From Methylopila jiangsuensis (GTDB lineage Bacteria > Pseudomonadota > Alphaproteobacteria > Rhizobiales > Methylopilaceae), in NCBI RefSeq assembly GCF_027922305.1, contig NZ_BSFK01000016.1, positions 62,001-126,000 of the forward strand: a DNA stretch of 64,000 nucleotides. The letters are read 5' to 3'. Under the pieces are notes generated by a model. It did no database searches. It had not been told where the DNA came from and saw only the letters and a list, made by a program, of their open reading frames with translations. A program made the translations under genes and the position numbers. This document shows, piece after piece, positions 9,029-19,821 of this stretch. Positions within the stretch are counted from its first letter, which is position 1. Each line of letters opens with the position of its first letter.

Positions 9029-9382
9029 ATGACCACCGATCTTTTCGAACTGTGGCGCCGCCAGATGGCTCTGGCCAACGGGTTCGCGGCCATGGGTCCG
9101 TTCGCCGGCTTCGTGATGGCGACCCGCATCGCGCAGATGACGCGCGAAGCCGGGGCTCCCACGCCGGCGGGCGTGGCGGAGGCGCAGCGCATGGTCTCCG
9201 AAAAGATGTCCGCCGCGTTCGAAGGCGGGGTCGCGGCGGGGCGGGTCCTGTCCCGCATGTCCTGCGCCACCACGCCGATCGCCGCCGCCGGCCTGATGGT
9301 CGCGGCCGGCGAAGCGGCGATCCGTCCGGCGAACCGCCGCCTGCGCGCGAACGCCCGGCGCCTGTCCCGCACGGGGCGCTGA
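9029..9382 (+). CDS. Small hypothetical protein
   Basis: 117 residues, not recognised. It begins MTTDLFELWRRQMALANG, is rich in Ala, Met and Arg, and reads as two amphipathic helices (GPFAGFVMATRIAQMTREAG; EAQRMVSEKMSAAFEGG) followed by a small hydrophobic stretch and a basic tail (RPANRRLRANARRLSRTGR). The helix-rich layout and Ala/Met content are reminiscent of phasin-like granule proteins, but no motif settles it. A GGAG box sits 12 bases before the ATG. It lies alone between fhs and the PKS operon. That it is a real gene is likely; the function is unknown. Confidence 0.55.
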   Translation: MTTDLFELWRRQMALANGFAAMGPFAGFVMATRIAQMTREAGAPTPAGVAEAQRMVSEKMSAAFEGGVAAGRVLSRMSCATTPIAAAGLMVAAGEAAIRPANRRLRANARRLSRTGR

Positions 9383-9728: not shown

Positions 9729-12700
9729 ATGAAAAAACACACGCCTCTCGCCATCGTCGGCCGTTCCTGCCGGCTTCCGGGCGCGCCCGACGTTCCCGCG
9801 TTCTGGCGTCTGCTGTCCGAGGGCCGCTGCGCCGTCACCTCCATCGGCGAGGAGCGGTGGAGCTCCGCCCGCTACCTGCACCCGCGCAAGGGGGAGCCCG
9901 GCAAGAGCTATACCTTCGCGGCCGGCGTGCTGGACGACATCTACGCCTTCGATCCGGCCGCTTTCGGCGTTTCGCCCCGCGAGGCCGAGCAGATGGACCC
10001 GCAGCAGCGGCTGTCGCTGCAGCTCGTGTGGGAGGCGCTGGAGGACGCCGGCATTCCGCCCTCCTCCATCGCCGGCGGCGAGACCGGCGTGTTCGTGGGC
10101 GCCTCCGCGCTCGACTACGGCAACCGCATCATCTTCGACCCGGCCTCGGCGGACCCCTATTTCGCCACCGGCAACACGCTCTCCATCGTCTCGAACCGCA
10201 TCTCTTACCTGTTCGACCTGCGCGGCCCGAGCTTCACGGTGGACACCGCCTGCTCGTCCTCCCTGGTGGCGCTGAACGAGGCGGTGGCGGCGCTGAACGC
10301 CGGCCGCATCGAGCGCGCCATCGTGGTGGGCGTGAACATCCTCGCCAGCCCGTTCCCGTTCATCTCCTTCGCCCAGGCGACCATGCTGTCGCCGCAGGGC
10401 CTGTGCCGGGCCTTCGACGCCTCCGCCGAGGGCTATGTGCGCTCCGAAGGCGGCGTGGCGCTGGTGATCGAGCGCGCCGACGCCGCCCGCGCCGCCCATC
10501 GCCGCATGCGGGTGATGATCGCCGCCTGCGACGTCAATTCCGACGGCCGCACCGTCGGCATGTCGCTGCCCTCCGCCGACGCCCAGCTCGCGCTGCTGGA
10601 GCGCGTCTACGCCCAGGCGGACATCGACCTCGACCGGCTCGCCTTCATCGAGGCCCACGGCACCGGCACCCGCGTGGGCGATCCGGCGGAGGCGAACGCC
10701 GTCGGCGGCCTGCTGAAGCGCCGCACGGCGGGGCCGGTGCCCATCGGCTCGGTCAAGAGCAACGTGGGCCATCTGGAGCCGGCCTCCGGCCTCGTCGGGC
10801 TGCTGAAGGCGGATCTGGCGCTGGAGCACGACCTGCTGCCGGCCTCGCTGCACGTCACCGAACTCAACCCGGACATCCCGTTCGACGAGCTGAAGCTCGC
10901 GGTGGCGACCCGCCCCGTGCCGCTGCCGCGCGGGTCCGCGCCGCGCTACGCCGGCGTCAACTCCTTCGGCTTCGGCGGCGCCAACGCCCATGTGGTGCTG
11001 AGCGACCCCACGCCCGAGGACCGGGCCGGGCGCTCCGCGCCGCGCGCCATCGACGCCGGTGGCCCGACCCCGGTTCTGGCGCTGTCCGCCCGCAGCCGCG
11101 AGGCGCTGACCGATCTCGCCGCGGCCTATGCGAAGACGCTCGCCGGCCGCGACGCCGCCCGCGCCCGGCACGTGGCCACCAGCGTCGCCGCCACCCGCGA
11201 CCTGCTGCCGAAGCGGCTCGTGCTGGAGAGCGACGATCCCACCAGCTGGGAGGCGACGCTCGCCGCCTTCGCCGAGACCGGCGCCGCCGACGGCGTGATC
11301 CTCGACGGCGCGGTCGGCCGCGAGGCGCCGGTGGCCTTCGCATACGCCGGCAACGGCTCGCAATGGGCTGGCATGGGCCGCCGCCTGCACGCCCACGACG
11401 CCGCGTTCCGGGCGCGGCTCGCCGAGATCGACGAGCGTTTCGGCGCGGTCGCCGGCTGGTCGGTGATCCAGGCGCTGTTCGCCGACGATCTCGCCGACAA
11501 GCTGAAGCGGGCCGAGTTCGCCCAGCCGCTGCTGTTCGCCACCCAGGAAGCGACCACTGCGGCGCTGGCCGCGGCGGGCGTGACGCCGGACGTGACGCTG
11601 GGCCATTCGGTGGGCGAGGTGGCGGCCGCTCTCGCGAGCGGCGCGCTGACGCTGGAGCAGGCCTGCGCCGTGGTGCATTCCCGCAGCCTGCATCAGGAGA
11701 TCGCCTGGAAGGCCGGCGTCATGGCCGCCGTGCTCGTGTCCGCGGACGAGGCGCGCGACCTGATCGCGGCCGGCGGCTTCGGCGGCGTGGAGATCGCGGC
11801 GATCAACAGCGCCCGCTCCATCACGCTGTCCGGCCCGGAGACCGAGATCCGCGAGCTCAGCCGCTTCGCCCGCGGCCGCCGGGTGGCGGTGCGGGTGCTC
11901 GACATCGACTATCCGTTCCACACCGGCCTGATCGAGGGCGTGCGCGCGCCCCTGCTGGACGATCTCGCGGGTCTGCGCCCGCGGGCGATGCGGGTTCCCT
12001 TCGTCTCCAGCGTCTCCGGCCAGGCGACCGACGGCGCGGCGCTCGACGCCGACTACTGGTGGGCCAACGTGCGCCGGCCGGTGCTGTTCGCCGACGCGGT
12101 GGAAGCCGCGGCGGGGCTCGGCGCCCGCGTGTTCGTGGAGATCGGCCCGCGGCCAGTGCTGCAGACCTACATGACCGACGTGCTGGCCGCGGCCGAGATC
12201 ACCGCCGGCGTGGTCAACTGCGACGACCACGGCGCGGGCGAGCACGATCCCGTGCGCCGCACGCTGGCGAAGCTCGTCGCCAAGGGCGGCCGCGTGGCCC
12301 GCGACGCAGCCTTCGGCCGGCTCAACGGCCCCGCCGTCCGCCTGCCGACCTATCCGTGGCAGAACGCCCGCTTCGCGGTGGGCGTGACGCCGGACGGTCA
12401 GGCGCTCTACCAGGGCTACGACCGCCATCCGCTGATCGGCGCCCGGCTGAAGACGCAGGGCGACGAGTGGAACGCCCATCTCGACCCGGCGGTCGCGCCG
12501 CTGATCGCGGACCACAAGGTGGGCGGCCGGGTGGTGGCGCCCGCCGCGGCGCTCGCCGAAATGGCGCTCGCCGCCGGCCGCGCCTGGCTGAAGGTCGAGG
12601 CGGTGGAACTGTCCGACTTCGAGATCAGCCACGCGCTGACGCTGGACGCCGACGCCATCGCCGAGGTGCGCACACGCATCTCGCCCGAAAGCCGCACGGT

Positions 12701-15700
12701 GGAGATCCTCAGCCGGCCGCGGCTGCGCTCCGAGGACTGGACGCTGCACGCCATCGGCCGCGTCGCCCCGGTTCCCGTCGCGAGGCCCACGATCGAGGAG
12801 GCCGTGACGCCCGCGAGCGCCCTCCGCGCCGAGGGCGCCGGGCTCTACGCCCTCGCCGGCGCCTACGGGCTCGATTTCGGCCCCGCCTTCCAGGCGGCGA
12901 GCCATGTGGAGCGGCTGTCCGAGAACCGGCTGCGGGTGACGCTGAAGCCGGAAGCGGAGCGTGGGCCCCGCGACGCCCGCTACGGCCTGCACCCGGCGGA
13001 CTTCGACGCCTGTTTCCACGGCCTGCTGACGCTGTTCGGCGAGGCCGGCGACCGGCCGGACGTGACCTATCTGCCCATGCGGTTCGGCGCGCTCCGGCTT
13101 TACGCGCCGGGCGCGGCCATCGCCCGGGCGGAGATCGTGATCCGCCGCTTCAGCCCGCGCTCCATCGACGCCGCCTTCACGCTGTTCGACGCCGACGGCG
13201 CGGTGATCGCCACGCTGACCGACGCCCGGTTCCGCGCCGTGACGCTCGCCCGCCGCACCCCGCTGGAGCGGCTATCCTACCACGCCGCGCCCGCGCTGAT
13301 CGGCCCCGGCCCCGAGGCCGCCGCGGTTGAGCCGCTGTCCGCGGCCATGCTCGCCGCCCGCGCGGCCTCGCTCGGCCTGACCGCCGCAAGCCCCGAGCGG
13401 CCGGACGACGACCTGCTGCTGGAAGCCTTCGCCGTCGCCGCCGCGCATCAGGCGCTCTCGGCGGTGTTCGGCCGCGGCCGCAAGCCGGCCCGCCTCGCCG
13501 ATCTCGTGGCGCGCAAGCGGCTCAAGCCCGCTTCCGCGCGGCTCGCCCGCAGCCTGCTCGACCTGCTCGCCGCCCGCGGCCACGCCGCCCGCGACGGCGA
13601 CGTGTGGACGCTCGCCGCCTCCACCGGCCTGCCCGCCGCGGCGGAGCTGATCCGCACCGTGCTGGCCGACAGCCCGGACCGGGGCGCGGAATGCGTGGCG
13701 GCCTCGCGCGCGCTGGCGCTGCTGCCGAAGACGCTTGTGGACGGCCCGTCGTCCCGCGCGCCGTTCGGCGCGGCGACGCTGGCCCATCTCGGGGCCGCCG
13801 CGCCTCTGGTCTCGGACGCGGTGGCGGCGCTGGCCCGGTTCGTGCGCGCCCATGTGGCGGCGGCCGCCGCCGACCGGCCGCTGCGCATTCTCGAGATCGG
13901 CGCCGGCTCCGGGGCGCTGACCCGCGCCCTCGCCGATCTGGGCGAAGACCCGCGGGTGACGCTGACCGTCAGCGACCCCGACGCCACCGCGGCGGAGCGC
14001 CTGCGCTTCGCCTTCGCCGGAAAGCCGGGGCTGAGCGTCGCCGCCTTCGATCCCTCCGCCGAGGGCGACGCCCCCGGAACCTACGATCTGGTGGTGGGCG
14101 CGCTCGGCTGGGGCCATGCGCTGTCCGGCCCGGACGCGCTGCGCCGCCTCGGCGCGACGCTCGCCGACGGCGGCGCGCTCATGCTGGCGGCGCTCGCGCC
14201 GCAGCCGCTGCTGGACGTGACCTTCGGGCTCGATCCGAGCTGGTTCGAGCGCTCGGCCACCGACGACTTCCCCGTGGGCGTGGCCCGCGACGCGAACGAC
14301 TGGGCGCATGATCTCGCCGACGCCCGTCTCGCCGACCATGTGGTGGCACCGCTCGACGGCGTGCGCGCGCCGGCCAACCTCGTGCTGGCCGTGCGTCCCG
14401 AACGCGCGCCGGCGGAGACGGCCGACGCTCCGGTCGCCGAGCTGGTGCTGGTCCATGAGGGGAGCGGCGCGCTTGGCGCGGCGCTCGAACAGGCGCTCGC
14501 GGCGGGCGGCCGGACGGTGCGCGCCGTGGCGCTCGACGACGTCTCCGGCGACTGGGGCGCGCCTGCCGCGCTCGACCTGCCCGCGCCCGCGAAGAACGCC
14601 CCTCGCCCGGACATCGTGGCCGTGTTCGACGCGCCGACGCCGGACGACGCCGCAAGCGCCACCGCCCGCGCCGGGCGGCTGCTGGGCGTGATCCGCGCCG
14701 CGCAGGCGGCGGAGGCGCGGCTGTTCGTGGTCGCTCCCGCCGCGCTCGGCCTCGACGGGGCGGAGCGGACCGACCAGGCCGCGCTCGCCGGCTTCCTGCG
14801 GGTGGTGCGCAACGAGCACCGCGGGCAGGACATCCGGCTGATCGACGCCGCGCCGTCGCTGGACACGGAGGCGGCGGCCGCCGCCATCGCCCGCGAGATC
14901 GCCGCGCCCCACGCCGATGTGGAGATCGCCATCGCGGCCGACGCGCTGCGCGCCCCGCGGCTGCGCCACGGCCTGCCGGAGCGGGCGACCTCCGCCCGGC
15001 CAGCCGCCGACGTGGCCGCCGCGCTGGAGACCGGCCGCGAGGGCGGGCTCGACGACGTGGCCTGGACGGCGAAGCCCCGCCGGGCGCCGGGCGCCGGCGA
15101 AGTGTCGATCGCGGTGGAGGCGGTCGGCCTCAACTTCCGCGACGTGATGTGGGCGCTTGGCCTGCTGCCGGAAGAGGCGCTGGAGGACGGCTTCGCCGGC
15201 CCCGGCCTCGGCATCGAATGTTCGGGCGTCGTCACGGCCGCGGGCGCCGGCGTCACCCATCTGAAACCCGGCGACCGGGCGGTGGCCTTCGCCTCGGGCG
15301 CCTTCGCCAGCCACGTCACGGTGCCCGAGATCGCGGTGGCGCCGCTGCCCGAGGGCGTGTCGTTCGAGGAGGGCGCCACCATCCCGGTGTGCTTCCTCAC
15401 CGCCTATTACGCGCTGGTGGAGCTCGCCCGCATCCGCCGCGGCGAATGGGTGCTGATCCACGGCGGCGCCGGCGGCGTCGGCCTCGCGGCGCTGCAGATC
15501 GCGCTGTGGAAGGGGGCCAAGGTCATCGCCACCGCCGGCACCGACGAGAAGCGCGACTTGCTGACCACGCTGGGCGCCACCCATGTGCTGTCCAGCCGCT
15601 CGCTGGAGTTCGCCGACGAGGTGAAGCGCCTCACCGGCGGCGAGGGCGTGGACGTGGCGCTGAACTCGCTGTTCGGCGAGGCGATGGAGCGCAGCGTCGG

Positions 15701-17270
15701 CGTGCTGAAGCCGTTCGGCCGCTTCCTGGAGCTCGGCAAGCGCGACTACTACGCCAACAGCCGGCTCGGCCTGCGCCCGTTCCGCCGCAACGTGTCCTAT
15801 TTCGGCATCGACGCCGACCAGCTGCTGATCCACCGGCCGGAGCTCGGCCGCCGGCTGTTCCGGGACATTCTGGCGCTGTTCGCCAAGGGCGTGTTCGCGC
15901 CGCTGCCCTACCGCGCCTTCGCGGGCCATGAGGTGAGCGACGCCTTCCGGCTGATGCAGCAGTCCGGCCACGTGGGCAAGATCGTGGTGCGGCCGGCGCG
16001 CCCGGCCGATCTGCCCGCCCCGGCCCGCGCCTTCCGCGCGGCGGAGGGGGTCCATGTGCTGGTGGGCGGCCTCGGCGGCTTCGGTCTCGCCACCGCCGAA
16101 TGGCTGGCGGCGAACGGCGCCACCAAGCTCGCGCTCATCGGCCGCTCCGGCGCGTCGTCGCCCGCGGCCGCCGCCGGCGTGAAGCGGCTTGAGGAGGCCG
16201 GCGTACAGGTGAAGGCGTTCGCCTGCGACGCCGCCGACGAGACGGCGCTGGCGAAAGCGCTGGACGAGACCCGCGCGGCGCTCGGCCCCATCGGCGGCGC
16301 CTGGCACGTGGCCATGGTGCTGGAGGACGCGCTGCTGGCCAATCTGGACGCGGACCGCTTCGCCAAGGCGCTCCGGCCCAAGATCGACGGCGGCAAGGCG
16401 CTCGACCGGCTGACGCGGGGCGATCCGGTCAAGCAGTTCGTGGTCTACTCCTCCGCCACCACCGTGATCGGCAATCCGGGGCAGGCGAACTACGTGGCGG
16501 CCAACTCCTGGCTCGAGACGCTGGCGCGCAACCGCCGCCGTGAGGGCCTGCCCGGCCTCGCTATCGCCTGGGGCGCGCTCGGCGACGTGGGCTATCTCGC
16601 CCGCACCGGCGAGGTGAAGGAGAAGATCCAGCGCCGGCTCGGCCACGCCACGCTCTCCGGCGCCGAGGCGCTGGCCGGACTCGGGACCGTGCTGGCGGAG
16701 GCGGACCTGCGGCCCGAGACCGCGGTGGTGACCATCGCTCCGCTCGACTGGGCCGCCGCCCGGCGCGACCTCGCCTTCCTCGCCGCCCCCACCTTCGCCG
16801 AGGTTCTGGCGGGCGCCGAGATGGGGCCGCAGGATTCGGTGGAGCAGATCGACCTCGCCGCGCTGGTGCGCGGCAAGGACGCCCGCGAGGCCCGCGACAT
16901 CGTGGCGGAGATCCTCGCCGGCGAGGTGGCGCGCATCCTGAAGCTGCCCGCCAAGGAGATCTCGCCCCAGCGCCCGCTGGCGGAGCTCGGCATGGACTCG
17001 CTGATGGGCCTCGAGCTGCGCATGAGCGTGGAGCGCCGCTTCGACGTGGAGCTGCCGCTGGTGGCGATCGGCGACAGCACCACGCTGATCACCATCGCCC
17101 AGTCGGTGGTGGCGCGCATCCACGATCCGGACGCGGGCGCGGAGACGGGGGCGGTCAACGCCGACCTCGCCCAGCGCCACATCGCCGACGACGTGGAGGC
17201 GGACGACCTCGCCGCCTTCGGCGCGGCGGTGGAGGAGCGGCGCGCCGCGCTCGGGCGGGCCGGCGCGTGA
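9729..17270 (+). CDS. Highly reducing type I polyketide synthase, RkpA-like, without thioesterase
   Basis: 2513 residues. Domains in order: ketosynthase about 5-425 (Cys175 in DTACSSSLVA, His310 in EAHGTGT, His348 in KSNVGH); acyltransferase about 530-850 (Ser627 in GHSVGE, His731 in YPFH); dehydratase about 895-1170 (His929 in HKVGGRVVAP, Asp1093 in DACFH); C-methyltransferase-like about 1340-1500 (LEIGAGSGAL); enoylreductase about 1775-2090 (GGAGGVGLAALQ); ketoreductase about 2108-2290 (GGLGGFG; Ser2242, Tyr2255, Asn2259); ACP with Ser2424 in GMDSLMG. All catalytic residues look intact. There is no TE or reductase release domain. Size and layout match RkpA of Sinorhizobium meliloti (about 2500 residues), needed for K-antigen production. 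The next gene overlaps it by 4 bases, so release by the PLP enzyme is the natural inference. Confidence 0.93.
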   Translation: MKKHTPLAIVGRSCRLPGAPDVPAFWRLLSEGRCAVTSIGEERWSSARYLHPRKGEPGKSYTFAAGVLDDIYAFDPAAFGVSPREAEQMDPQQRLSLQLVWEALEDAGIPPSSIAGGETGVFVGASALDYGNRIIFDPASADPYFATGNTLSIVSNRISYLFDLRGPSFTVDTACSSSLVALNEAVAALNAGRIERAIVVGVNILASPFPFISFAQATMLSPQGLCRAFDASAEGYVRSEGGVALVIERADAARAAHRRMRVMIAACDVNSDGRTVGMSLPSADAQLALLERVYAQADIDLDRLAFIEAHGTGTRVGDPAEANAVGGLLKRRTAGPVPIGSVKSNVGHLEPASGLVGLLKADLALEHDLLPASLHVTELNPDIPFDELKLAVATRPVPLPRGSAPRYAGVNSFGFGGANAHVVLSDPTPEDRAGRSAPRAIDAGGPTPVLALSARSREALTDLAAAYAKTLAGRDAARARHVATSVAATRDLLPKRLVLESDDPTSWEATLAAFAETGAADGVILDGAVGREAPVAFAYAGNGSQWAGMGRRLHAHDAAFRARLAEIDERFGAVAGWSVIQALFADDLADKLKRAEFAQPLLFATQEATTAALAAAGVTPDVTLGHSVGEVAAALASGALTLEQACAVVHSRSLHQEIAWKAGVMAAVLVSADEARDLIAAGGFGGVEIAAINSARSITLSGPETEIRELSRFARGRRVAVRVLDIDYPFHTGLIEGVRAPLLDDLAGLRPRAMRVPFVSSVSGQATDGAALDADYWWANVRRPVLFADAVEAAAGLGARVFVEIGPRPVLQTYMTDVLAAAEITAGVVNCDDHGAGEHDPVRRTLAKLVAKGGRVARDAAFGRLNGPAVRLPTYPWQNARFAVGVTPDGQALYQGYDRHPLIGARLKTQGDEWNAHLDPAVAPLIADHKVGGRVVAPAAALAEMALAAGRAWLKVEAVELSDFEISHALTLDADAIAEVRTRISPESRTVEILSRPRLRSEDWTLHAIGRVAPVPVARPTIEEAVTPASALRAEGAGLYALAGAYGLDFGPAFQAASHVERLSENRLRVTLKPEAERGPRDARYGLHPADFDACFHGLLTLFGEAGDRPDVTYLPMRFGALRLYAPGAAIARAEIVIRRFSPRSIDAAFTLFDADGAVIATLTDARFRAVTLARRTPLERLSYHAAPALIGPGPEAAAVEPLSAAMLAARAASLGLTAASPERPDDDLLLEAFAVAAAHQALSAVFGRGRKPARLADLVARKRLKPASARLARSLLDLLAARGHAARDGDVWTLAASTGLPAAAELIRTVLADSPDRGAECVAASRALALLPKTLVDGPSSRAPFGAATLAHLGAAAPLVSDAVAALARFVRAHVAAAAADRPLRILEIGAGSGALTRALADLGEDPRVTLTVSDPDATAAERLRFAFAGKPGLSVAAFDPSAEGDAPGTYDLVVGALGWGHALSGPDALRRLGATLADGGALMLAALAPQPLLDVTFGLDPSWFERSATDDFPVGVARDANDWAHDLADARLADHVVAPLDGVRAPANLVLAVRPERAPAETADAPVAELVLVHEGSGALGAALEQALAAGGRTVRAVALDDVSGDWGAPAALDLPAPAKNAPRPDIVAVFDAPTPDDAASATARAGRLLGVIRAAQAAEARLFVVAPAALGLDGAERTDQAALAGFLRVVRNEHRGQDIRLIDAAPSLDTEAAAAAIAREIAAPHADVEIAIAADALRAPRLRHGLPERATSARPAADVAAALETGREGGLDDVAWTAKPRRAPGAGEVSIAVEAVGLNFRDVMWALGLLPEEALEDGFAGPGLGIECSGVVTAAGAGVTHLKPGDRAVAFASGAFASHVTVPEIAVAPLPEGVSFEEGATIPVCFLTAYYALVELARIRRGEWVLIHGGAGGVGLAALQIALWKGAKVIATAGTDEKRDLLTTLGATHVLSSRSLEFADEVKRLTGGEGVDVALNSLFGEAMERSVGVLKPFGRFLELGKRDYYANSRLGLRPFRRNVSYFGIDADQLLIHRPELGRRLFRDILALFAKGVFAPLPYRAFAGHEVSDAFRLMQQSGHVGKIVVRPARPADLPAPARAFRAAEGVHVLVGGLGGFGLATAEWLAANGATKLALIGRSGASSPAAAAGVKRLEEAGVQVKAFACDAADETALAKALDETRAALGPIGGAWHVAMVLEDALLANLDADRFAKALRPKIDGGKALDRLTRGDPVKQFVVYSSATTVIGNPGQANYVAANSWLETLARNRRREGLPGLAIAWGALGDVGYLARTGEVKEKIQRRLGHATLSGAEALAGLGTVLAEADLRPETAVVTIAPLDWAAARRDLAFLAAPTFAEVLAGAEMGPQDSVEQIDLAALVRGKDAREARDIVAEILAGEVARILKLPAKEISPQRPLAELGMDSLMGLELRMSVERRFDVELPLVAIGDSTTLITIAQSVVARIHDPDAGAETGAVNADLAQRHIADDVEADDLAAFGAAVEERRAALGRAGA

Positions 17271-18658
17271 GCGGGCGCGGTCGAGGCATCGGCGGCCTGT
17301 CGCGGGCCGCCAAGGACAGCGTGCTCGGCGCCTTGCGCGCCGCGCAGCCGGCGAAGGACGAGGACGGCGGCGAACCCGCCCGGCCGCGCCCCGTGCTTCG
17401 GCGCAAGCGCAACAGCTTCGCCGATCTGCCGGAGCTGAAGGACATCCACACCCAGCGGGCGGTGGCCGACCTGCTGAAGGTGGAGAACCCGTTCTTCCGG
17501 GTCCATGACGGCCGGGCCGGGGCCCGCACCGAGATCGACGGCCGCAGCCTGCTGAACTTCGGCTCCTACAACTACCTCGGCCTCAACGGCCATCCGGAGG
17601 TCTCCGCCGCCGCCAAGGCCGCGGTGGACCATTACGGCGTTTCCGCCTCCGCCAGCCGGCTGGTGGCGGGCGAGCGGCCGGTGCACCGGGAACTGGAGCG
17701 TCGCATCGCCGGCTTCGTGGGGGCGGAGGCGGCGCTGGTCTTCGTCAGCGGCCACGCCACCAATGTGGGCGTGATCGGGCACCTGCTGCGGCCGAACGAC
17801 CTGATCCTCTACGATTCGCTGTCGCACAACTCCATCGTCATGGGCGCGCAGCTCTCGGGCGCGACCCGGCGCATGTTCCCCCACAACGACTTCGACAAGC
17901 TGGAGGAGCTGCTGGCGGCCCACGCCCACGCCCACGACCGGGTGCTGGTGGCGATCGAGGGCCTCTACAGCATGGACGGCGACATTCCCGACCTCGCCCG
18001 CGCGGTGGCGCTGCGCGAGCGCTACGGCGTGTGGCTGATGGTGGACGAGGCCCATTCGCTGGGCGTGCTGGGCAAGACCGGCCGCGGGATCGCGGAGGAG
18101 GCCGGCGTCGACCCGCACGACGTGGACATCTGGATGGGCACGCTCTCCAAGACCCTTTCCGGCTGCGGCGGCTACATCGCGGGTTCCGGCGCGCTGGTGG
18201 AGTTCCTGAAGTTCACCGCGCCCGGCTTCGTCTATTCTGTCGGCATGCCGCCGCCGGTGGCGGCCGCCGCCATCGCCTCGCTCGACGTGCTGGAGCGGGA
18301 GCCGGAGCGGGTGGCGAAGCTGCGCGCCAACGGCCTGCGCTTCGTGGAGAAGGCGAAGGCCGCCGGTCTTGACGTGGGCGACAGCGCCGGCTTCGCCATC
18401 TCGCCGGTCATGGTGGGCGACAGCCTGCGCGCGGTCTATCTGGCCGACCGCCTGCTGCAGCGGGGCGTCAACGCGCTGCCGATCGTGCATCCCGCCGTGC
18501 CGGAGCGGGCCGCGCGGCTGCGCTTCTTCCTCACCAGCGAGCATTCCGACGCCGACATCGACGAGGCCGTGGCGATCACGGCCGAGGAGCATGCGGCGCT
18601 CGCCAAGGCCGGGTTCGGCGTGAAGATGGCGGCGGCTCTCGCCAAAGCCACGAGATAG
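17267..18658 (+). CDS. AONS/serine palmitoyltransferase-like PLP enzyme (RkpG-like)
   Basis: 463 residues from a GTG overlapping the PKS stop (GTGA). It is an alpha-oxoamine synthase of fold type I: His163 in SGHATNVG, SHNSIVMGAQ, Asp260 and His263 in DEAHSLGVLG, and the PLP lysine Lys295 in TLSKTLSGCGGYIAG. About 95 N-terminal residues precede the GSYNYLGL segment, longer than in AONS or KBL but as in RkpG-type proteins. The family condenses an acyl thioester with an amino acid, losing CO2, to give a 2-amino ketone. Translational coupling to a PKS lacking a release domain suggests that it takes the chain from the ACP. The amino acid substrate cannot be read from the sequence. Confidence 0.9.
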   Translation: MSGRGRGIGGLSRAAKDSVLGALRAAQPAKDEDGGEPARPRPVLRRKRNSFADLPELKDIHTQRAVADLLKVENPFFRVHDGRAGARTEIDGRSLLNFGSYNYLGLNGHPEVSAAAKAAVDHYGVSASASRLVAGERPVHRELERRIAGFVGAEAALVFVSGHATNVGVIGHLLRPNDLILYDSLSHNSIVMGAQLSGATRRMFPHNDFDKLEELLAAHAHAHDRVLVAIEGLYSMDGDIPDLARAVALRERYGVWLMVDEAHSLGVLGKTGRGIAEEAGVDPHDVDIWMGTLSKTLSGCGGYIAGSGALVEFLKFTAPGFVYSVGMPPPVAAAAIASLDVLEREPERVAKLRANGLRFVEKAKAAGLDVGDSAGFAISPVMVGDSLRAVYLADRLLQRGVNALPIVHPAVPERAARLRFFLTSEHSDADIDEAVAITAEEHAALAKAGFGVKMAAALAKATR

Positions 18659-18696
18659 GACCTTATGGCTTGAGCGGTCCGGGGGGACGGCGTTCC

Positions 18697-19821
18697 ATGG
18701 TTGAGATACGGCCGCTGACGTCGAAACGCGACGTCAAGGCGTTCTGGCGTGCAGGGCTCGCGGCGCAGGGGCGTGACCCCAACTACGCGCCGCCGCTGCT
18801 GCACGAGCTGAACGTCACCATCACGCCGCGGAACACGCCCTTCGCCCGCGCCAATGACGGGCAGGCCTGGACCGCGTTCCGGGACGGCGAGCCTGTGGGC
18901 CGCATCTACGCGGTGAAGAACCACGCCCACCTCGCCGCCCATGGCGACGCGACCGGCCAGTTCGGCTTCCTGGAGGCGATCGACGACGACGCGGTGTGGG
19001 AGGCGCTGTTCGAGACCGCCTTCGGCTTCCTGCGCGGGCGCGGACTGACGCGCGTCACCGGCCCCTACAGCGCCTCGGTCAACCACGAATGCGGCCTGCT
19101 GGTGAAGGGCTACGGCACGCCCTCCACAACCCACACCAATTACGCCCCGCCCTATTACGCGGCCCGGCTGGAAAAGCTCGGCTTCCGCCCCGCCAAGGAC
19201 ATCGTCGGCTACGAGGGCGACGTGAACGCGAGCCGCCTCCCAGAGCGGGTGGCGCGGGCGCGGGCCAGATGGCGCGGCTCCCGCGACCTCACGTTGCGCA
19301 GCGCCGTGGGGCCGGACGCGGTGGCGCAGATCAACGACGTCTACAACGACGGCTGGTCCGGCAACTGGGGGGCGGTGCCGGTTTCGATCGAAGAGGCGCG
19401 CTTCCTCGCCGAACTTGCCCAGCCGATCCTGCCGCGCGACTGGACCGTGATCGCCGACTGGCGCGGCGAGCCCATCGGCGTGCTCACCATGGCGCCGGAC
19501 GTGAACCAGGCGATCCACGACCTTGGCGGCCGCCTCGCGCCCTTCGGCTGGGCGAAGATGCTGTGGCGGCTGAAGGTGTCCGGGTTGAACCGGGTGCGCG
19601 TGCCGGTGATCGGCGTGCGCCGGGGCTGGCGCGGCACCCGGGTCGGCGCGATGGCCGCAGCCGCGCTGCTGGCCGACGCGGTGGAGAAGGCCCGCAAGGC
19701 CGGCGCGGAGCGGATGGAGGTGAGCTGGATGCTCAAGGACAACCGCAACGTCATCAATCTGGTGGCTGGCATGCCCGCCGAACTCACCAAGGTCTGGCGC
19801 ATCTATGAGCGGGAGCTGTGA
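18697..19821 (+). CDS. YghO/BcerS-type N-acyltransferase (GNAT-like)
   Basis: 374 residues from the ATG at 18697 (GGGGGGA about 10 bases upstream); a TTG nine codons earlier is less likely. Family marks are: N-terminal VEIRPLTSKRDVKAFWR; RITGPYS-like VTGPYSASVNHECGLLVKGY; YYAARLEKLGF; the acyl-CoA-type loop RRGWRGTRVGAMAAAAL; and the end EVSWMLKDNRNVINLV with KVWRIYEREL. This layout is that of the YghO/BcerS family, which includes the bacterial ceramide synthase that N-acylates sphingoid bases in Caulobacter. It lies 38 bases after the AONS-like gene on the same strand. N-acylation of the amino ketone made by the two preceding enzymes is inference from family and context. Confidence 0.8.
   Translation: MVEIRPLTSKRDVKAFWRAGLAAQGRDPNYAPPLLHELNVTITPRNTPFARANDGQAWTAFRDGEPVGRIYAVKNHAHLAAHGDATGQFGFLEAIDDDAVWEALFETAFGFLRGRGLTRVTGPYSASVNHECGLLVKGYGTPSTTHTNYAPPYYAARLEKLGFRPAKDIVGYEGDVNASRLPERVARARARWRGSRDLTLRSAVGPDAVAQINDVYNDGWSGNWGAVPVSIEEARFLAELAQPILPRDWTVIADWRGEPIGVLTMAPDVNQAIHDLGGRLAPFGWAKMLWRLKVSGLNRVRVPVIGVRRGWRGTRVGAMAAAALLADAVEKARKAGAERMEVSWMLKDNRNVINLVAGMPAELTKVWRIYEREL

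Follow-up and report, generated by a model that had tools for sequence, protein, structure and literature searches.

A polyketide synthase, an alpha-oxoamine synthase and a ceramide-synthase-like gene in one Methylopila operon: a candidate sphingoid lipid pathway with a possible capsule connection

Polyketide-derived sphingoid lipids have a recent bacterial precedent in Pseudomonas fluorescens MYb115, in which the polyketide synthase (PKS) PfSgaA and the alpha-oxoamine synthase (AONS) PfSgaB are described as making C24-C28 sphinganines, with PfSgaB condensing serine with acyl-CoAs (Nat Commun 2025, PMC12134224). The same account interprets compounds 154 Da heavier as phosphoglycerol sphingolipids and proposes the short-chain dehydrogenase/reductase (SDR) PfSgaC as the reductase; SgaAB is presented as a secondary-metabolite sphingolipid pathway, and the string “capsul” occurs nowhere in the text (PMC12134224). 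Here, we describe an operon on a 64,000-nucleotide stretch of the Methylopila jiangsuensis genome (contig NZ_BSFK01000016.1, positions 62,001 to 126,000, hereafter the window), in which genes for a PKS and an AONS are followed by a third gene, P3, of the YghO/BcerS family. We give a probability of roughly 55% to the reading that this operon supplies the lipid in a split capsule-primer pathway of the rkp/sga type, to which a ceramide-synthase-like step has been added.

Other described systems resemble parts of this arrangement. On the capsule side, a review reports that exopolysaccharide and K-antigen polysaccharide are both absent from an exoA rkpH double mutant (PMC8227245), and KpsS is described as transferring 3-deoxy-D-manno-octulosonic acid (Kdo) to (lyso-)phosphatidylglycerol, with KpsC extending the linker (PMC7694667). 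In Porphyromonas gingivalis, deletion of the canonical serine palmitoyltransferase (SPT) lowered the K-antigen capsule, and the authors speculated on sphingolipid anchoring (2016, PMC5126122); that idea shares with ours a sphingolipid as surface-polysaccharide anchor, but involves a canonical SPT and, as described, no PKS. Within the literature that we searched, mostly outside subscription papers, this SPT-based case was the one link between capsule and sphingolipids, and none was found for a PKS-AONS system. The canonical bacterial ceramide pathway uses a YghO-type N-acyltransferase. As described for Caulobacter (Spt, bCerS, CerR; PMC11087976, PMC11324152), it also begins with an AONS-fold enzyme, but its donor is an acyl-CoA or acyl-ACP (acyl carrier protein) rather than a PKS-bound chain. 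Release of a highly reducing PKS by an AONS is likewise described for the fungal sphinganine-analogue toxins (fumonisin FUM1/FUM8), which belong to a different lineage. The methyltransferase (MT) domain of the fumonisin PKS is active, whereas its counterpart here looks inactive. The sponge swf PKS clusters, considered as the closest kind, were set aside, their description giving reductase/sulphotransferase domains in place of an AONS (PMC3908369).

The three genes lie on the plus strand and form one operon. The open reading frame (ORF) of the single-module type I PKS (9729-17270, 2513 aa) overlaps that of the AONS (17267-18658, 463 aa) by 4 bases, and P3 (18697-19821, 374 aa counted from ATG, with an in-frame TTG also present at 18670) follows after a gap of 38 bases; these coordinates agree with the layout given in an earlier note made from the letters of the window. 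For comparison, we used a genus sample of 13 genomes, namely the window's genome (G000, 3.7 Mb) and 12 relatives of the Methylopila/Hansschlegelia group, together with five genomes from other genera of the family Methylopilaceae (G, C and L denote our genomes, contigs and loci). P3 was found in 13/13 genus genomes and in none of the five others, and the co-occurrence of the three genes, which the earlier note expected in relatives, holds across the genus.

P3 is a member of the YghO/BcerS family, an assignment on which the earlier note had staked its reading and on which tree, conserved columns and fold agree. It is 33% identical to Escherichia coli YghO across most of its length (E-value 1.7e-64). 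Among 121 other members of the family, 43 alignment columns show at least 95% conservation, and P3 agrees with the majority residue in 41 of these. Caulobacter enters the comparison through a gene of Caulobacter sp. HMWF025 (L108). The AlphaFold2 model of P3 (pLDDT 88), searched with Foldseek, is a tandem GNAT, and the folds listed include glucosamine and mycothiol acetyltransferases; a sequence search of the PDB gave no match at E-values up to 1 with the single sequence and 12 weak ones with a profile. We propose on these grounds that P3 is an N-acyltransferase of ceramide-synthase-like type. The short GNATs found in PKS-AONS clusters of Pseudomonas and Paraburkholderia were considered as relatives of P3 and dropped, having no meaningful similarity to it; at ~200-227 aa (L229, L230), they could be alternative acyltransferases. 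In E. coli K-12, yghO (L039:7044-8216) is annotated as a putative transcriptional regulator, though its relative is predicted to be a tandem GNAT, and its start is overlapped by IS5.

Within the family, P3 falls in a clade of its own kind. A tree built with FastTree from 138 sequences (170 before removal of pieces shorter than 330 aa, stop-containing pieces and duplicates) has a 17-member clade with support 0.957, which holds P3 and the other 12 genus sequences, with one sequence each from G218, Beijerinckia mobilis, a Stellaceae metagenome-assembled genome (L141) and G043 (L026/L049). The ceramide synthase (CerS)-type genes of SPT loci, including the second family copy of the window's genome, lie outside this clade, and P3 did not group with them when canonical BcerS grouping was tested. 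An AONS gene adjoins 16 of the 17 clade members, although independent cases are few because 13 of the 17 come from one genus. Of 80 loci of the YghO/BcerS family, 31 include a gene of SPT type and 12 an AONS gene of the window's type (10 of these from Methylopilaceae), and P3-type genes, inside or outside the P3 clade, occur with both an AONS and an SDR in L141, L144, L219 and L231, and with an AONS in L049. The clade member without an adjoining AONS, that of Beijerinckia mobilis (L099:10001-11128), has neither AONS nor PKS within the fetched stretch.

The AONS likewise stands apart from the canonical enzymes. Lys295, named in the earlier note as the pyridoxal phosphate lysine, sits within GTLSKT and is conserved in the AONS alignment, as are the catalytic His and Asp positions. 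A tree of 67 sequences (excluding pieces shorter than 320 aa, stop-containing pieces and duplicates, among them the AONS of G139, L218; PfSgaB is not in the tree) places it in a clade of 33 with support 0.994, which includes the Sinorhizobium meliloti sequence (L228) and in which a PKS adjoins 31 members. Canonical SPT, BioF and Kbl fall outside this PKS-linked clade, and a wider grouping with the AONS of PKS-less capsule loci has a support of 0.487 only. The window's VDEAHS motif is closer to that of SPT than to those of BioF or Kbl, which points to serine use as a hint, not as proof.

By Pfam, the PKS has the domain order KS-AT-DH-(pseudo-MT)-ER-KR-ACP (ketosynthase, acyltransferase, dehydratase, MT-like, enoylreductase, ketoreductase, ACP); the 17 families listed do not include a thioesterase. 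Six aligned genus relatives conserve the motifs of KS, AT, DH, KR and ACP, which are intact in the window's PKS, the ER nucleotide-binding motif is present, and all of these are retained in six further homologues, with changes near the second DH motif. The earlier description of a complete PKS thus stands for these domains and for the lack of a thioesterase, and fails for the MT. The AT carries GHSVGE and YPFH, which we take to fit malonyl over methylmalonyl units. Overall, the enzyme is a highly reducing PKS of the RkpA/SgaA type, presumably used iteratively.

The MT-like domain (residues 1371-1600, positions 13839-14528, plus strand) is probably inactive, judging by its motifs. Its proportion of invariant columns among the genus relatives (33%) is that of flanking non-catalytic regions (32%), as compared to 51-52% for AT and DH, 63% for KR, 67% for ER, 70% for KS and 89% for ACP. 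The CurJ histidine, which we take to be catalytic, is unmatched in the window's domain, and the genus alignment has no invariant histidine in the stretch of residues 1370-1500. The glycine-rich S-adenosylmethionine (SAM) motif is degenerate in the homologues of S. meliloti, Pseudomonas, Paraburkholderia, Shinella and Methylobacterium bullatum; on the other side, this motif looks fair in the window's PKS, and an NVLH is retained in M. bullatum. Since the domain looks inactive, the methyl-branched product suggested in the earlier note was rejected as unlikely on these motifs and their conservation, and a chain that is saturated and unbranched is more to be expected.

A reductase is missing from the operon, as the earlier note had it, but a candidate stands elsewhere in the genome, and the same is true of K-antigen-type genes, which are outside the window. 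On contig C2, an SDR gene follows kpsS in a block with the order OPX / lipoteichoic acid (LTA)-synthase-type sulfatase / kpsC / kpsS / SDR. This pairing recurs throughout the genus, an SDR match lying at most 200 bases downstream of a KpsS match in 13/13 genomes; at E-values of at most 1e-30, the SDR itself is found in all 13 and in none of the five other-genus genomes, which also lack P3. PF05159 (KpsS/KpsC) is similarly distributed (13/13 genus genomes, 0/2 of those other-genus genomes in which it was searched). The window genome's SDR is 29-54% identical to SDRs of other PKS-AONS loci, and we regard it as a candidate 3-ketosphinganine-type reductase. KpsM-, KpsT- and KpsE-like genes lie at C16:473-476 kb, and matches at family level are clear for PF05159, OPX and KpsE and weak for KpsM and KpsT. 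In two of the genus genomes (G005, G002), the capsule block and the operon share a contig, 22-24 kb apart.

The window's genome also has a separate canonical sphingolipid locus on contig C10 (~370.9-382.4 kb; L040, L058), the only such locus read among the 13 genus genomes. It comprises genes for SPT, an ACP, a fatty acyl-AMP-ligase, a CerS-type protein, a putative nucleotidyltransferase-like protein and two putative LptF/G-like proteins, with no CerR-like gene next to SPT. The second YghO-family gene of this genome (C10:371,670) is closer to the canonical CerS type. Canonical CerR was tried as the missing reductase and discarded, as the query (an ORF of epimerase-like sequence that L139 carries between its AasR-type gene and its SPT gene, taken for CerR by position and sequence) gave only 30-33% identity in six genus and two same-family genomes, with no clear CerR among them; in G218, this putative CerR query gave 42% identity.

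Beyond the genus, the halves that are separate in Methylopila are often found together. A block of the OPX/sulfatase/kpsC/kpsS/SDR type adjoins PKS-AONS in Methylobacterium bullatum (L232) and in G342, and PKS-AONS-P3 adjoins SDR-KpsS in G218. On pSymB of S. meliloti (strain Ak57, L228), PKS, AONS, SDR, sulfatase and KpsS stand in one run, presumably the rkp genes, the record itself giving no names. The RkpA/RkpG parallel drawn in the earlier note is borne out by this pair, with 53% identity for the AONS, 41% for the PKS and the same 4-base overlap; the cluster further shares with Methylopila the SDR, the LTA-synthase-type sulfatase and a KpsS-type protein, but unlike it is contiguous. Compared by its published description, the PfSgaAB(C) cluster also has an AONS gene placed after that of an iterative type I PKS, and a 3-ketosphinganine-reductase-type SDR assigned to the pathway; its SDR is in the same cluster, whereas that of the window's genome is on another contig, and its description contains no BcerS-type gene corresponding to P3. 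The spacing of the MYb115 locus tags (RS19805, 19800, 19775) matches the one in L229 (RS26445, 26440, 26415), in which PhyH, KpsC, GNAT and LTA-synthase genes separate the AONS gene from that of the SDR.

To evaluate how regularly these genes co-occur, we searched 385 genomes of the class, of which 17 had an AONS match at E-values of at most 1e-80, with a PKS directly upstream in 13 (the remaining four have no PKS in the fetched stretch, one of these being a short contig). At the default threshold (E-value at most 0.001), PF05159 was present in 7/13 PKS-AONS genomes vs. 55/372 others (Fisher p-value 0.0016), and in six of the seven carriers it lay at most 10 kb from the AONS, the exception being the window's genome. 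Among 398 genomes of the phylum, 18 had an AONS match at E-values of at most 1e-110; the 13 loci newly fetched from these all have a PKS adjoining the AONS, and eight match KpsS, KpsC, OPX or sulfatase (one weakly, several by OPX or sulfatase alone), the other five having none of these in the fetched stretch. PKS-AONS pairs are often near an SDR and KpsS in other genomes. Two neighbourhoods differ in layout: a plasmid of Acidisoma sp. (L231:772-10134) carries KpsC, KpsS, AONS, SDR, P3-like and sterol-desaturase-family genes, with no PKS in the stretch, and the Stellaceae metagenome-assembled genome (L141:9231-19968) has PKS-AONS tail to tail with a same-strand SDR-P3 pair.

These gene contents suggest the following route. 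The PKS, working iteratively on malonyl units, would build up a long acyl chain, unbranched and fully reduced, on the ACP that it carries. The AONS would then release this chain in a decarboxylative condensation for which serine is the most likely partner, to give a 3-ketosphinganine-like base. The SDR encoded beside kpsS would reduce the ketone, and P3 would N-acylate the base, before or after this reduction, to a ceramide-like lipid with two chains. As judged from the proteins encoded, a sphingoid product is likely and N-acylation by P3 plausible; the polyketide-derived sphingoid or ceramide-like pathway with a BcerS partner put forward in the earlier note is sound in its core, its methyl branching apart. 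LTA-synthase-type enzymes transfer glycerol phosphate, and the sulfatase of the kps block may add this group to give a (lyso-)phosphatidylglycerol analogue, on which KpsS and KpsC might begin to build the Kdo linker for a capsule exported by KpsMT; these are the least certain steps, and it is gene context that suggests a capsule role for the lipid. Taken together, the MYb115 lipids, the Kdo transfer by KpsS and LTA-synthase chemistry make it conceivable that a phosphoglycerol sphingoid replaces lyso-phosphatidylglycerol.

It is tempting to extend this proposal to PKS-AONS(-SDR) pathways at large, the rkp and sga types included, which may form a general sphingoid primer route for Kps-type capsules, with glycerol phosphate added by an LTA-synthase-type enzyme and the Kdo linker by KpsS/KpsC. 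In the Methylopila group, in G218 and in a few further cases, a dedicated YghO-family ceramide synthase would then be added, giving a polyketide-derived ceramide anchor. We hold this wider version more tentatively, at somewhat short of an even chance. If true, it would join two subjects unconnected in the literature examined, the PKS-made sphingolipids of SgaAB and the K-antigen loci with their PKS-AONS-SDR genes, and would explain the purpose of the PKS in rhizobial K-antigen loci, give a likely purpose to the MYb115 phosphoglycerol sphingolipids, provide a defined pathway behind the 2016 speculation on sphingolipid capsule anchors, and point to a second branch of ceramide-synthase-like proteins, one linked to capsules.

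Several observations weigh against a capsule-linked pathway of this kind. The pathway is split, with the capsule block on another contig or far off in 11/13 genus genomes, and no Kps protein of the window's genome reaches its NCBIfam cut-off (KpsS 235 against 600 bits, KpsM 74 against 300, KpsE 232 against 437.5), the KpsT candidate having VexC as its best match (44 against 313 bits) and KpsC having no NCBIfam match. The S. meliloti cluster lacks P3, so that N-acylation is not a step common to all such pathways, and the SDR of that cluster is just 29% identical to that of the window's genome. Six of the 13 PKS-AONS genomes of the class have no PF05159 match at all, so that the capsule link is not obligatory, and the sharper contrast obtained at E-values of at most 1e-45 (7/13 vs. 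12/372, p-value 3e-7) comes from a cut chosen after the table had been seen, with two of the seven carriers belonging to the same genus. In P. gingivalis, loss of SPT lowered the capsule and did not abolish it (PMC5126122). Finally, P3 could serve the canonical SPT/CerS locus of the window's genome.

Part of this evidence would equally suit a PKS-derived, ceramide-like lipid that is free in the membrane or secreted, with no capsule role and no methyl branching. Such a lipid would account for the distant capsule block and for the PKS-AONS genomes lacking PF05159, and the SgaAB lipids of MYb115 were seen, in the account available, as extractable lipids (PMC12134224). It leaves aside that the SDR completing the pathway is tied to kpsS throughout the genus, and that PKS-AONS adjoins kps genes in records of Methylobacterium, Sinorhizobium, Shinella and Pseudomonas; we consider it unlikely, if the strongest of the competing explanations. 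Less probable again is a pathway whose PKS and AONS yield an amino ketone or sphingoid related to the capsule while P3 acylates another target, such as a capsule sugar or an amino group of the linker. GNATs act on many amines, as the glucosamine and mycothiol acetyltransferases among the listed folds illustrate, and P3 lies beside PKS-AONS in only 2/13 class genomes (G000, G218) and 3/18 phylum genomes (G000, G004, G218); set against this are the BcerS/YghO conserved residues that P3 retains, the SPT-type genes in many loci of its family and the recurrence of P3-like genes next to AONS and SDR in other lineages. That P3 is an additional ceramide synthase serving the genome's canonical SPT pathway, standing behind PKS-AONS by chance, seems very improbable. 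In its favour, a second YghO-family gene is present in 13/13 genus genomes, and in the window's genome it occupies the canonical SPT locus; against it, P3 itself belongs to a distinct clade associated with AONS genes, dominated by one genus though this clade is.

The capsule-primer reading builds on ideas that are already in print, since the SgaAB work of 2025 already put forward a bacterial sphingoid of PKS origin (PMC12134224) and sphingolipid capsule anchoring in general has been put forward (in the account of PMC5126122). What is new is a ceramide-synthase-like gene of a separate clade, tied to AONS genes, in an operon with PKS-AONS. Also new are the splitting of the pathway, the candidates for its reductase and capsule partners, and an MT that looks inactive.

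Upstream of the PKS, on the plus strand, lies a gene overlooked in the earlier note (9029-9382), which encodes a conserved, all-helical protein of 117 aa, phasin-like in look only. Because it precedes the PKS in 10/10 Methylopilaceae loci examined (L089-L098) and stays there even where the wider flanking genes differ, it probably belongs to the operon unit. The protein is 59-72% identical among relatives, its model consists of three helices at moderate confidence (pLDDT 73.6), and a Pfam search gave no family above cut-off. In Chenggangzhangella methanolivorans (L057/L096), the PKS frame is broken in the assembly, and the AONS and P3 frames are open.

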